Below, one piece after another: positions 14,574 to 22,168 of a stretch of 61,132 nucleotides of DNA. Source of the DNA: Olsenella phocaeensis (lineage in GTDB: Bacteria; Actinomycetota; Coriobacteriia; Coriobacteriales; Atopobiaceae); NCBI RefSeq assembly GCF_900120385.1, contig NZ_LT635494.1, positions 288,877-350,008 on the forward strand. The letters are read 5' to 3'. A program made the position numbers and the translations under genes. The notes beneath the pieces are model-generated. The model was not told where the DNA came from, ran no database searches, and saw nothing but the letters and a program-made list of their open reading frames with translations. The stretch's first letter is position 1, and every line of letters starts with the position of its first letter.

Positions 14574-14924
14574 CTAGCCCTCGTGCCTCCAGAGGACTTC
14601 GAAGCCGTCGTCCTTCGCCTGTGCTACGAGCTCGAGCTCGTCCTCGCGCGCACCCGCAGGCAGCAGCGCGCCTTCGGTGCCGGGGACATAGCTCGCGCAG
14701 GTGCCGCAGCTGCTGCTGAGCGAGCGCGGCACGGGCATGAGCTCCACCTCCCAGCCCGCCTTCTGGCAGAGGCCGCGGAAGCGCATGGCTGCGAAGCGCG
14801 AGACGTTCTCACGCGGGGCGGGGCTGTCGACCAGCACCTCGAGCTCCGCCTCGTCGCGCAGGGCGTTGCGGGTGAGTACGACGGGCTCGGGGCAGGAAAG
14901 CCCGCGTGCGTCAATGGTCTTCAT
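14574..14924 (-). CDS. TusA-DUF3343 fusion, putative sulfur/selenium carrier
   Basis: A 116-residue soluble protein with two carrier-type modules. Residues 1-48 are TusA/SirA-like, with the sulfur-accepting Cys11 in GLSCPEP. Residues about 45-116 match DUF3343, seen in PVPRSLSSSCGTCASY with Cys73 and Cys76. DUF3343 is annotated as a Se/S carrier-like family and usually stands alone. The gene follows yedE on the same strand, so it may hand selenium taken up by YedE to the desulfurase/lyase enzymes nearby. AGGAGAA precedes the ATG. The domain boundary is tight, so the two modules share a strand or linker. Confidence 0.8.
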   Translation of the reverse strand: MKTIDARGLSCPEPVVLTRNALRDEAELEVLVDSPAPRENVSRFAAMRFRGLCQKAGWEVELMPVPRSLSSSCGTCASYVPGTEGALLPAGAREDELELVAQAKDDGFEVLWRHEG

Positions 14925-14997: not shown

Positions 14998-15969
14998 TTA
15001 CTCGCTGCGCGAGAGGCTGTTGGCATAGGCGATCGCCAGGACCACGACGATGCCCAGGACCGTGGCGACCATGCCGTTGAAGGTGGGGCCGGAGCCGCTG
15101 GAGGCGAGGCCGAAGTTGTGGCAGAAGGCGGCGCCGGCGACGAGGCCCAGGATGGTGATGGTGCTGTCGGAGTTGCCCTCGCCCGAGAGGACCGTCTGGC
15201 GCAGGGGGCAGCCGCCCAGGAGCGCGCAGGAGAGGCCCAGCAGGAAGGTGCCCAGGGCGTTCCACAGCGCGTCGGTGTGGGCGATGGGCTGCTCGGCGAA
15301 GCCCAGCTTGAAGAAGGTGCCGGGGGTCGCGGCGGTGAGGACGAGGTTGGTCGCGAGCGCCGCCGCGAAGATGGCCACGAAGCCCAGGATGAGCTTGTTG
15401 TCGCGGAAGAGGATCAGGTCGCGGATGCCGCCCACCATGCAGAGGCGGGTGCGCTGGGCGATGGCGCCGACGACCAGGCCGGCGACGAGGCTGATGCCCA
15501 GGGCGGCGTGCAGTGCGCCGGGGCCCTTGCCCGCCTCGGTGAAGTGGATGAACTCGGGGGCGGCGATGGCCAGCACCAGGAGCACGACGGCGATGACGGG
15601 CATGACGGAGCCCTCGACGACGCCCATCTTGTGGGAGCGGGCCAGGCTGTAGCCGCGGTTGAGGAAGACGACGCCGCAGGCGATGCCCAGGACGAAGCGG
15701 GTGACGGGGGCGCTTCCACCCTTGGGGGCGAACTCCTTGTTCGCGACGGCCATGACCGTGCTGCCCAGGATCAGGCCGATGATCTCGGGGCGGATGTACT
15801 GGACCGCTGCGGCGGAGTCAAGCCCCAGCGCACCTGCGGTGTCGCGCATGAAGCAGGCGATGCAGAAGCCCATGTTGCCGGGGTTGCCGAAGTACACGAG
15901 GAGCGACGCGATGACGCCGATCACCGCGCCTCCCACAACGATCGCCGTCTTCTCACTCTTTGCGTCCAC
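14998..15969 (-). CDS. yedE: YedE-family putative selenium transporter
   Basis: A 323-residue polytopic membrane protein of the YedE/YeeE family, with paired half-channel repeats. Characteristic Cys-containing loops are visible: NMGFCIACFMRD near residue 32, QRTRLCMVGGIRD near 180 and GGCPLRQTVLSGEGN near 260. The selenium branch of the family is a predicted carrier of selenium compounds. The GTG start at 15969 has AAAGGAG upstream. Linkage to selD, yedF and lyase-type genes supports selenium over thiosulfate, but the substrate is inferred. Confidence 0.88.
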   Translation of the reverse strand: MDAKSEKTAIVVGGAVIGVIASLLVYFGNPGNMGFCIACFMRDTAGALGLDSAAAVQYIRPEIIGLILGSTVMAVANKEFAPKGGSAPVTRFVLGIACGVVFLNRGYSLARSHKMGVVEGSVMPVIAVVLLVLAIAAPEFIHFTEAGKGPGALHAALGISLVAGLVVGAIAQRTRLCMVGGIRDLILFRDNKLILGFVAIFAAALATNLVLTAATPGTFFKLGFAEQPIAHTDALWNALGTFLLGLSCALLGGCPLRQTVLSGEGNSDSTITILGLVAGAAFCHNFGLASSGSGPTFNGMVATVLGIVVVLAIAYANSLSRSE

Positions 15970-16036: not shown

Positions 16037-17155
16037 ATGCTGACAATGTTTGAGTTTGCTGAACCTTTCCCGCCAGCGTCACGCGTACAGGGCACCAACG
16101 TGGGACGCGGAGCCTACCAGGGTGCCTATGGCACCGAGCAGGTCGTCTTCGAGACGCGCGAGCGACTCTGCAGGCTCTTCGGCGGCTCGTACTGCGCCAA
16201 CGTGGTCTTCTCGAAGAACGTGACCGAGTCCCTCAACGTCCTGCTCAAGGGCTACCTGCGACCCGGGGACCACGTGATCGTCTCCTCCATGGAGCACAAC
16301 GCCGTCATGCGTCCCCTGCGCCAGCTAGAGCGCCAGGGCGTGAGCTTCACCCGCGCCCGCTGCGACGGGGAGGGCGCGCTCGACCTGGACGCGCTCGAGT
16401 CCTGCATCACCCCCGCCACCCGCGCCCTGGTCATGACGCACGCGAGCAACGTCTGCGGCACCGTCATGCCCGCACGCGAGCTGGGCGCCTTCTGCCGGGA
16501 GCACGGCATCCGCTTCTTCCTCGACAGCGCGCAGACCGCGGGCGTGCTCCCCATAGACGTGGGCGAGCTGCACGCGGACGCCGTGGCCTTCACCGGCCAC
16601 AAGGGCCTCATGGGTCCCCAGGGCATAGGCGGGCTCGTGCTGGCCGAGGGGCTGGGCCTGGAGCTCGAGCCCCTCGTCTCTGGCGGCACGGGGAGCGTCA
16701 GCCACAGCGAGGAGCTTCCGGACTTCCTGCCCGACCGCCTGGAGGCGGGCACCCAGAACCTGCCGGGCATCTTTGGCCTGCATGCCGCCCTGGGCTGGAT
16801 CGCAAAGACGGGCATCGACGCCATCCATCGGCACGAGATGGCGCTCGCGGAACGCTTCATGGAGGGACTGGCCCCCCTGGAGGAGAGGGGCGTCGCAAGG
16901 CTGGTCGGAAGGCGTGGCAGCGAGGGACGCACCGCCGTCGTGTCCATCCAGACGCCTGGCGACGACGAGGCGACCGTCGCAAAAAAGTTGGATTCCGACT
17001 ATGGAATCATGGTCCGCGTGGGGTTACACTGCGCCCCGTCCGCGCACAAGACATTGGGGACCTACCCCAGCGGCACCATTCGCTTCTCGTTCGGCTACTT
17101 CAACACGGCCGAAGAGGTGGATGCCGCGCTAGAGGCGCTTCGAGACATCTTGTAG
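16037..17155 (+). CDS. Class V aminotransferase (cysteine desulfurase/selenocysteine lyase), paralogue 1
   Basis: A PLP enzyme expected to release S or Se from cysteine or selenocysteine, about 372 residues. The PLP lysine is in FTGHKGLMGPQG and the persulfide/selenide Cys in GLHCAPSAH. Asp and Gln of the cofactor pocket are in DSAQTAG. Unlike paralogue 2 (21032-22168), the N-terminus lacks the YLDNAATT segment and begins MLTMFEFAEPFPP before joining the family at NVGRGAYQGAYG. No frameshifted copy of the missing part is found upstream. It is divergent from yedE. Starts at 16037 or 16046 are both possible and no strong ribosome-binding site is seen. Confidence 0.85.
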   Translation: MLTMFEFAEPFPPASRVQGTNVGRGAYQGAYGTEQVVFETRERLCRLFGGSYCANVVFSKNVTESLNVLLKGYLRPGDHVIVSSMEHNAVMRPLRQLERQGVSFTRARCDGEGALDLDALESCITPATRALVMTHASNVCGTVMPARELGAFCREHGIRFFLDSAQTAGVLPIDVGELHADAVAFTGHKGLMGPQGIGGLVLAEGLGLELEPLVSGGTGSVSHSEELPDFLPDRLEAGTQNLPGIFGLHAALGWIAKTGIDAIHRHEMALAERFMEGLAPLEERGVARLVGRRGSEGRTAVVSIQTPGDDEATVAKKLDSDYGIMVRVGLHCAPSAHKTLGTYPSGTIRFSFGYFNTAEEVDAALEALRDIL

Positions 17156-19067: not shown

Positions 19068-19207
19068 GTCGTTCCTTCCTGTGCCGGCCTGGGGTGAGGT
19101 TCCGTGGACGGGTGCCCCAGGGGCGCCGTGGTCCAGGACATTCTACGCGCGGGAGCCTTTGGCGGCGGACATGCCGCCCCGCGCACGAGCAGGGGGAGGA
19201 GGCAGCC

Positions 19208-20257
19208 ATGACGGCAAAGAAGGTCCAGCTCACCAAGATGACCAAGGCGGCTGGTTGAGCGGCCAAGATGGCACCTGGTGCCCTCGCTCAGGTTCTGAGC
19301 GACCTACCCAACACGTTCAGCCCGCGGCTGCTCATCGGCTATGACGGCTCGGACGACGCCTGCGTGTACAAGGTGAGCGACGACACGGCGCTCATCAGCA
19401 CCGTGGACTTCTTCCCGCCCATGGTCGACGACCCCTACCTCTTCGGCCAGATCGCCGCAGCGAATGCTCTCTCGGACGTCTATGCCATGGGAGGCACGCC
19501 CACCCTGGCCATGAACCTGCTCTGCTTCCCCAACTGCCTCGACGTGAGCGTCGCGGAAGAGATCCTGAGGGGCGGGGCGAGCAAGGCCATGGAGGCGGGC
19601 TGCACCATAGCGGGCGGCCACACCATCACGGACGACGAGCCCAAGTACGGCATGTGCGTCATGGGCTTCGCGCGTCCCGACGAGGTACTGGCCAACGGCG
19701 GCGCGCGCCTGGGCGATGCCCTCGTGCTCACCAAGCGCGTGGGCTCGGGGCTCCTCAACACGGCCGTCAAGGGCGAGCTGCTCGAGCAGTCCGAGCTCGG
19801 CGAGCTGTACCAGGAGATGAGCACCCTCAACAAGTATGCGGCCGAGGTCGCGCGCGACTTCGACGTGCACGGCTGCACCGACGTGACGGGCTTCGGCCTG
19901 GCGGGCCACCTCTGCGAGATGGCCGAGGGCGCGGGCGTCACGGCGCGCCTGAGCTACTCGGCAGTCCCGCTCTTCGACAGCGCGGCCGACATGGCTCGCA
20001 TGGGAATAGTCCCCGGCGGGGCCTACCGCAACGAGGACTACTTCAAGGACCGCGTGAAGGTGGACGAGGGGCTTGCCGAGGAGGTTCCCGAGGTCGTCTT
20101 CGACCCGCAGTCCTCCGGCGGCCTGATGTTCGCCTTGCCGCCCGAGCAGGCTGACGAGCTGGTGGCGCGCATCCGCGCGACCGGCGTCTCGGCGGCACGC
20201 GTGGGAGAGTTCGTGACCCGCGGTGAGGGGGAGCCCTTCGTCAGGGTCGTCAAGTAG
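19208..20257 (+). CDS. selD: Selenide, water dikinase, a selenoprotein (Sec17, in-frame UGA)
   Basis: Makes selenophosphate from selenide and ATP for selenoprotein and modified-tRNA synthesis, 349 residues. The frame opens at ATG 19208 behind GGGGGAGGAGG and reads through TGA at 19256-19258 as codon 17. The context is AAG-U-AAKMAP, which places selenocysteine at the exact site of the catalytic Cys17 of E. coli SelD, with K20 three residues later. The rest (19268 onward) is a full AIRS-type synthase: YDGSDDACVY, STVDFFPPMVDD, AGGHTITDDEPKYG, TDVTGFGLAGH. Without recoding it would be read as an N-terminally truncated gene from 19268. Confidence 0.93.
19256..19290 (+). promoter_or_regulatory. 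Candidate bacterial SECIS hairpin in selD mRNA
   Basis: The UGA codon itself opens an outer stem, TGAGCG (19256-19261) with CGCTCA (19285-19290). An inner stem GGCAC/GTGCC (19270-19274 with 19278-19282) is capped by CTG. The apical loop begins about 17 nt after the UGA, within the distance range of bacterial SECIS elements read by SelB. Confidence 0.7.
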
Positions 20258-20328: not shown

Positions 20329-20955
20329 ATGAGCCAGGAAATCATCGACGTCAACGCCATCGGCGACGCCTGCCCCATCCCCGTGGTCAAGACCATGAAG
20401 GCCGTGGCCGCAGCGGCCGAGTGCGCGACCGTCGTCACCTCTGTGGACAACCCCACGGCCGTCAAGAACCTCCAGAAGTTCGCGGGCGAGAAGGGCCTCG
20501 CGTCCTCGGTCGAGGACAAGGGAGACGGCAGCTGGCAGGTGAGCATCCAGGTTGGCGCGGGAGCCGCCGAGGCCGCCAAGGAGGCCGACCCCGCGGACTA
20601 CGCCTGCTGCGCGCCCGGCAACGGCGTGGTCGTGGCCATCACGGCCGACCACATGGGCGAGGGCTCCGACGAATTGGGCCGCACCCTCATGAAGGGCTTC
20701 ATCTACGCCCTCACCCAGCAGGAGGTCCTCCCCAAGTGCGTCCTGTTCTACAACGGCGGCGTCAAGCTCACCACCGAGGGCTCCGACTCCATCGAGGACA
20801 TCAAGGCCCTCGTGGATGCCGGCGTCGAGGTCCTGAGCTGCGGCACCTGCCTCAACTTCTATGGCATCGCCGAGAAGCTCCAGGTGGGCGACGTCACCAA
20901 CATGTACGTCATCGCCCAGCGCCAGATGGAGGCCTCGCACGTGGTCAGGCCCTAG
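20329..20955 (+). CDS. yedF: YedF, sulfurtransferase-like selenium metabolism protein
   Basis: A 208-residue protein with an N-terminal TusA-like domain (about 4-75) and a C-terminal DsrE-like domain (about 100-208). The TusA carrier Cys15 sits in GDACPIPVVKTM. The second domain contains LFYNGGVKLTTEGS and EVLSCGTCLNFYG. This two-domain arrangement defines the selenium-associated YedF family, found with selD and yedE in many anaerobes. AAGGGAAG precedes the ATG. It is followed after 76 bp by lyase paralogue 2 on the same strand. Confidence 0.92.
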   Translation: MSQEIIDVNAIGDACPIPVVKTMKAVAAAAECATVVTSVDNPTAVKNLQKFAGEKGLASSVEDKGDGSWQVSIQVGAGAAEAAKEADPADYACCAPGNGVVVAITADHMGEGSDELGRTLMKGFIYALTQQEVLPKCVLFYNGGVKLTTEGSDSIEDIKALVDAGVEVLSCGTCLNFYGIAEKLQVGDVTNMYVIAQRQMEASHVVRP

Positions 20956-21031: not shown

Positions 21032-22168
21032 GTGATCTACCTGGACAACGCCGCCACCACCATGCGCAAGCCCCAGGTCGTGGTGGATGCCGTGGTCGAG
21101 GCCCTTCAGGGCATGGGCAACGCATCTCGCGGCACGAGCGAGGCCTCGCTCGTTGCCACGAGGGCGGACTACGTGGCGCGCGAGCGCCTGGCCAGGCTCT
21201 TCGGCTGTCCCCGCGCGGACCACGTCGCCTTCTGCTCAAACTCCACCGAGGCCCTCAACGTCACGCTCATGGGCCTGGTGCGCCCGGGCGACCACGTGGT
21301 GAGCACCGACCTCGAGCACAACTCGGTCCTGAGGCCGCTCTATCGCCTGCGCGACGAGCGCGGCGTGCGCCTGGATTTCGCCGGGGCGGACGGGGAGGGG
21401 AGGCTCGACTACGACGCGCTCGAGCGTCTGGTGGTCGACGGAACTCGCCTCGTCGCCGTGACGCACGGCTCCAACGTCACGGGCAACATGGTGGACGTCA
21501 GGCGCGTGGCCGACGTGGCCCACGCCCACGGCGCCCTGGTGGTCCTCGACGCCTCCCAGACCGCGGGCGCGCACGACGTCGACATGGGCAGGCTCGGCGC
21601 CGACGTGGTCTGCTTCACCGGGCACAAGGGGCTCATGGGTCCCCAGGGCACGGGCGGCCTCTGCCTTGCGGAGGGCGTCGACGTCGCCCCGCTCAAGGTG
21701 GGCGGGACGGGCGTCAAGTCCTTCCTCGAGTCGCAGCCCGACGAGTACCCCACCCGCCTGGAGGCCGGCACCCTCAACAACCACGGCATCGCGGGCCTCT
21801 CCGCCGCCCTGGGATGGCTGGAGGAGCTTGGCGTGGAGGTCGTCCGCACGCGCGAGGGCCTGCTGATGCGCCGCTTCTGGGAGGGCGTCCGCTCCGTGGA
21901 CGGCGTCCGCGTCTACGGGGACTTCGGCCAAGCGGAGCGCTGTGCCATCGTCGCCCTCAACGTCCGCGACCACAGCTCCTCCGCCGTCTCGGACGAGCTC
22001 TCGCAGCGCTGGGGCATCGCCACCAGGCCGGGGGCGCACTGTGCCCCGCGCATGCACCGCGCCCTGGGCACCGTCGAGCAGGGCGTGGTCCGCTTCAGCT
22101 TCTCGTACTTCAACACGGAGGACGAGGTGGACGTGGCCATCGCCGCCGTGAGGGAGCTTGCTGCGTAG
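21032..22168 (+). CDS. Class V aminotransferase (cysteine desulfurase/selenocysteine lyase), paralogue 2
   Basis: A complete 378-residue PLP enzyme of the same branch as the 16037-17155 gene. It opens MIYLDNAATT, has the cofactor-pocket Asp in DASQTAG, the PLP Lys in FTGHKGLMGPQG and the catalytic Cys in GAHCAPRMH. The GTG start at 21032 follows AGGAGGAA. Its place after selD and yedF suggests it supplies selenide (or persulfide-bound Se) to SelD. Whether it prefers Cys or Sec cannot be told from sequence. Confidence 0.9.
   Translation: MIYLDNAATTMRKPQVVVDAVVEALQGMGNASRGTSEASLVATRADYVARERLARLFGCPRADHVAFCSNSTEALNVTLMGLVRPGDHVVSTDLEHNSVLRPLYRLRDERGVRLDFAGADGEGRLDYDALERLVVDGTRLVAVTHGSNVTGNMVDVRRVADVAHAHGALVVLDASQTAGAHDVDMGRLGADVVCFTGHKGLMGPQGTGGLCLAEGVDVAPLKVGGTGVKSFLESQPDEYPTRLEAGTLNNHGIAGLSAALGWLEELGVEVVRTREGLLMRRFWEGVRSVDGVRVYGDFGQAERCAIVALNVRDHSSSAVSDELSQRWGIATRPGAHCAPRMHRALGTVEQGVVRFSFSYFNTEDEVDVAIAAVRELAA

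Follow-up and report, generated by a model that had tools for sequence, protein, structure and literature searches.

A selD gene of Olsenella phocaeensis with UGA at the catalytic Cys17 site and tandem hairpins downstream, a probable selenocysteine-containing SelD

The selD locus and its selenium-related neighbors

The window analyzed here, a stretch of 61,132 nucleotides from the Olsenella phocaeensis contig NZ_LT635494.1, contains a gene for selenide, water dikinase (SelD) among several other genes related to selenium (Table 1). The selD frame comprises 349 codons up to the stop at 20255-20257, and its sole interruption is the TGA of codon 17. When this TGA is translated as selenocysteine (Sec), the product scores 380.4 bits against the TIGR00476 profile (cut-off 125), and residues 8-314 match profile positions 2-310; the match is thus full-length and exceeds the curated cut-off. 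Both the AIRS and the AIRS_C domain are present according to the profile search, and the E. coli SelD structure 3u0o (PDB) matches the protein with an E-value of 2e-73. Codon 17 aligns to Cys17 and codon 20 to Lys20 of E. coli SelD, and the alignment with 3u0o together with Aquifex SelD (2yye) places both residues of the catalytic Cys/Sec17 and Lys20 pair.

Table 1 Features of the selD locus and its surroundings (positions in the window)
Feature	Position	Strand	Evidence or remark
YedE family putative selenium transporter	14998..15969	-	TIGR04112, 394 bits (cut-off 200)
Second cysteine desulfurase / SclA-like protein	16037..17155	+	lacks the first ~24 family profile positions
Shine-Dalgarno GGGGGAGGAGG	19192..19202	+	sequence; ends 5 nt before ATG 19208
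selD, selenide, water dikinase, 349 aa with putative Sec17 (U)	19208..20257	+	TIGR00476; E. coli SelD 3u0o
UGA codon 17, on catalytic Cys17	19256..19258	+	TGA or TGC/TGT in relatives
Proximal hairpin H1, GGCAC-CUG-GUGCC	19270..19282	+	covariation
Distal hairpin H2, CGCUCAGGUUCUGAGCG, loop (G)GU[U/C](C)	19285..19301	+	covariation; published SECIS model
yedF (selenium-metabolism sulfurtransferase-like), adjoins selD	20329..20955	+	TIGR03527, 207 bits (cut-off 110)
Cysteine desulfurase / selenocysteine lyase-like (am_tr_V_EF2568 family)	21032..22168	+	TIGR01977, 387.9 bits (cut-off 377); start inferred

A sequence-only reading of this locus had proposed a frame from ATG 19208 that passes TGA 19256 in the context AAG-U-AAK, with Sec at the catalytic Cys17 site and Lys20 kept. 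The sequence agrees on all three of the former points, and the alignment to 3u0o bears out the positions of the latter two. The Shine-Dalgarno sequence that it placed before the ATG is present, and the truncation it expected from gene callers does occur, as the mechanical open reading frame starts at 19268 and yields 329 aa. The window selD offers a clean example for gene-call correction.

One possible alternative is that the UGA acts as a true stop; synthesis of SelD would then begin at ATG 19268 and yield a 329-aa protein that lacks the N-terminal loop, with the upstream frame left as a leader. The mechanical frame begins at this codon, and the catalytic core domains lie downstream of it. 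However, such a product would lack both residue 17 and Lys20, dozens of genomes preserve the 16 codons upstream of the UGA at the protein level, and the strong Shine-Dalgarno sequence precedes 19208 instead; reading the sequence upstream of ATG 19268 revealed none. We regard a start at this codon as very unlikely.

The genes for YedE, YedF and two Sec-lyase-like proteins around selD argue for real selenium use. The product of the lyase-like gene downstream of yedF also scores 331 bits against the SclA model, which is under the cut-off of that model. In the second such gene, at 16037-17155 on the plus strand, the profile match begins at position 25 and the usual N-terminal YLDNAATT segment is missing; this gene may be either a variant form or a degenerate copy. 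A short YedF-like frame on the minus strand (14574-14924) lies beside yedE and matches only the first 47 profile positions, under the cut-off.

Conservation of codon 17 and the tandem hairpins

Among the 81 closest SelD loci (the 80 nearest and the window), codon 17 is TGA in 39, TGC or TGT in 42, and nothing else in any of them. UGA thus occupies the Cys site in a family with both Cys and UGA homologues, as expected for a Sec-containing SelD. With more loci from the order Coriobacteriales added, the counts become 87 TGA, 26 TGC and 19 TGT. The TGA rows come from Olsenella, Collinsella, Enorma and clostridial MAGs, and the Cys rows from Thermophilibacter/Olsenella and Clostridium/Lachnospiraceae. 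The leader KxxLTxMTxA[AS]G upstream of codon 17 is kept, and the 16 preceding residues are conserved as protein. A SelD tree of 92 rows requires three Sec/Cys label changes, with Cys clades nested within Sec rows. This topology suits Sec-to-Cys losses, although the tree is rooted by midpoint and does not prove the direction of change; such losses in SelD have been reported previously (PMC1794560). Coriobacterial-type SelD genes with both hairpins and with tRNA-Sec 0.2 kb downstream were also observed on Flavonifractor and Faecousia MAG contigs (L028, L044 and L045), reflecting either gene transfer or misbinned contigs.

This conservation bears on the possibility that the TGA is a nonsense change from TGC or TGT in a Cys SelD, due to pseudogene formation or to sequencing error in an assembly that is a draft with scaffold joints. 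The same TGA recurs across several families, in MAGs as well as in independent isolates, which refutes such an origin. Moreover, the remaining frame is intact, and the UGA is followed by hairpins that are absent from the Cys relatives. A damaged or misread Cys gene is therefore extremely improbable.

With the U of the UGA numbered +1, the two hairpins extend from +15 to +27 (H1) and from +30 to +46 (H2). Each is fully paired in 17 of 18 distinct coriobacterial-type Sec rows and in none of 40 Cys rows. In H1, the wobble base of Ala22 covaries with the wobble base of Gly24 (AU, CG, GC and UA), a pattern for which the protein cannot account. The H2 stem links the wobble position of Ala27 to the first position of codon 31 (for Ser, Gly or Arg), and its loop is closed by a pair, +36/+40, that reads GC, AU or GU among the rows. 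The covariation of the hairpins runs largely through synonymous codon positions. Over 15 rows, 98.9% of the cells are paired, and 23 cells carry double changes compared with 7.4 in shuffles; sliding the partner by 1-3 columns reduces the pairing to 29-53%. When codons were permuted among rows with the amino acids preserved, none of 3000 permutations reached the observed pairing, and the result was the same with one row per lineage.

Random recodings of the window for the same peptide with local codon usage produce H2 in 0.35% and H1 in 22% of cases, so that only H2 is striking when the window is considered alone. Single-sequence folding of the window was not significant (z from -0.26 to -1.10), and an Rfam search around selD with E up to 10 matched no SECIS family. 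A long stem around H1 (UGAGCG/CGCUCA) was dropped, as its partner bases are changed in most relatives.

The published bacterial SECIS model calls for a stem of 4-16 bp, a loop of 3-9 nt with G in its first two places, a distance of 16-37 nt after the UGA and an energy of at most -7.5 kcal/mol (PMC13188914). H2 conforms to it, with 6-7 bp, the loop (G)GUU(C) 32-33 nt after the UGA and -9.1 kcal/mol, while H1 alone fails, with G third in the loop and -5.6 kcal/mol. In 11 of 13 clostridial Sec rows, full pairing occurs in a helix shifted downstream by one nucleotide (+16 to +28), and by inspection this helix recurs in most of the order's other coriobacterial SelDs, usually without H2. Collinsella FdhA and GrdB of the same lineage carry GG at +22/+23. 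On balance, we somewhat favor H2 as the SelB site in the clade of the window, in which case H1 might be a spacer or a helper.

Selenocysteine machinery in the host and across the order

The host genome (an assembly of 2.28 Mb, 95% complete draft) also encodes tRNA-Sec, selA and the beginning of selB, arranged head to tail at C1:1058.9-1061.5 kb. The tRNA-Sec scores 80.8 bits against a gathering score of 47. SelA and tRNA-Sec thus accompany selD in the same genome, as expected for a Sec-containing SelD. The selB frame comprises 189 N-terminal residues and then passes through a single-N scaffold joint into a LysR-type regulator gene; the C-terminal mRNA-binding (wing) domain of SelB was not found in the host draft assembly. 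At the corresponding position, five relatives carry long SelB frames, of ~630 aa in four and 452 aa in the fifth, and an intact selB is likely in the host. The sequence-only reading had named absence of selA, selB and selC as a refutation. They are not absent: selA and tRNA-Sec are both there, and selB is there in part, as its N-terminus.

Single-N scaffold joints interrupt both selA and selB, and selA is partly doubled in the assembly. Around the cluster (L003 1-16001, corresponding to C1:1052000-1068000), the single-N joints, repeated copies of a nusA-like gene and the doubled selA are scaffold artefacts. Because of these artefacts, gene callers would report fused or truncated proteins in the region.

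A further alternative is a genome-wide reassignment of UGA to an amino acid such as Trp, Gly or Cys, in favor of which no evidence was found. Against this, the UGA lies exactly at the Cys site common to the relatives, tRNA-Sec and selA are present in the genome, and table 11 gives open frames for the other window genes that were examined. Reassignment in place of Sec can be considered extremely improbable.

To analyze co-occurrence, 219 genomes across the order were sampled, in which SelD matches were scored as 74 with and 50 without an internal TGA. Before correction, selA was found in all 74 genomes with TGA-SelD, and tRNA-Sec above the threshold used in 70 of them, while two of the 50 scored without TGA had both selA and tRNA-Sec (G071 and G039). 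The G071 SelD does carry TGA, since its match had begun downstream, and the G039 SelD has TGT. In the corrected table, selA occurs in 75 of 75 TGA-SelD genomes versus 1 of the 49 without TGA, counts in which sister genomes are not independent, so that their Fisher value cannot be read at face value, and in which 'Cys' is inferred for most of the 49. The constant presence of selA in genomes with UGA-SelD also argues against a start at ATG 19268. Neither selA nor tRNA-Sec was found in 48 of the 49 genomes whose SelD has no TGA. In a single bacterial order, a SelD with UGA is thus accompanied by the Sec machinery in almost every case, and a SelD lacking UGA by the absence of this machinery, which makes a known idea testable. 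G039 (L131) is the sole sampled genome in which selA and tRNA-Sec accompany a SelD with Cys (TGT), which may reflect a recent change from Sec to Cys. SelD without TGA and without selA or tRNA-Sec was observed in one family, for example in G056, G060 and G104.

We also searched for other selenoproteins. FdhA and SelU gave no match in the 95% complete host draft, and FdhA gave none in genomes of the host's family at the threshold used. GrdB gave no match in the host genome either, in a search that was silent in control genomes too, though its profile gives the GrdB of G128 512 bits. Codon statistics over the window and the sel-cluster stretches revealed no convincing further UGA gene in the host, by a method that missed the window SelD. 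SelD is therefore the only selenoprotein found in the host genome, from a non-exhaustive list of three families searched genome-wide (FdhA, SelU and GrdB). It is tempting to speculate that SelD is the host's only selenoprotein and that the Sec machinery chiefly makes its own supplier, in a loop that is nearly closed and has no evident user beyond it. We consider this unlikely; if true, it would make the question of what maintains the Sec code more pressing.

Proposed mechanism and comparison with known systems

Together, our sequence comparisons make it nearly certain that the gene is a functional selD in which codon 17, a UGA, would be decoded as Sec by SelA, SelB and tRNA-Sec. In the proposed model, this machinery of the cell would read the UGA under the guidance of a hairpin just downstream, and Sec17 would stand in for the catalytic Cys17 within the flexible loop at the N-terminus. 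There, Sec17 may take part with Lys20 in the synthesis of selenophosphate from selenide and ATP. The selenophosphate would then pass through SelA into Sec-tRNA and thus into more SelD. Since selD has a copy number of 1 in the host genome, with no second SelD, the active site of SelD would itself depend on selenium. Such a positive loop, which the sequence suggests, might have a regulatory effect.

Sec-containing SelD is widespread and well known. It was among the selenoprotein families counted early and ranked as the second most widespread prokaryotic family, after FdhA (PMC1794560, PMC13188914). The window adds a member to this long-known group. Like known Sec-containing SelDs, it has its putative Sec at the Cys17 site in the N-terminal selenium-binding loop, keeps Lys20, has a hairpin after the UGA and occurs with selA and selC. 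The selenium genes of the host resemble the coriobacterial selenium clusters of Slackia heliotrinireducens (PMC5322559), which likewise comprise selD, yedF, yedE, genes for Sec-lyase-like proteins and selA-selB, where a LysR-type gene adjoins selB. The host selD, however, lies ~750 kb from selC-selA-selB, whereas in the nearest relatives selC is 0.2-1.5 kb downstream of selD.

Another member of the host's family, G128, carries a glycine reductase operon with an in-frame UGA in both grdB and grdA, beside selD-selC-selA (L132 9087-15991). These two selenoprotein genes have a UGA followed by a hairpin, like the window selD, but the host genome gave no GrdB match in the search in which control genomes were silent.

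The window selD differs from known Sec-containing SelDs in its two adjoining, covarying hairpins, the distal one of which fits the SECIS model. A small literature search found no specific description of a tandem SECIS in selD. The details that are new here are the lack of FdhA, SelU and GrdB matches in the host assembly and the clade-specific tandem hairpin. The tandem hairpin is a modest but well-defined variant, and mutations in it could reveal which element SelB binds.
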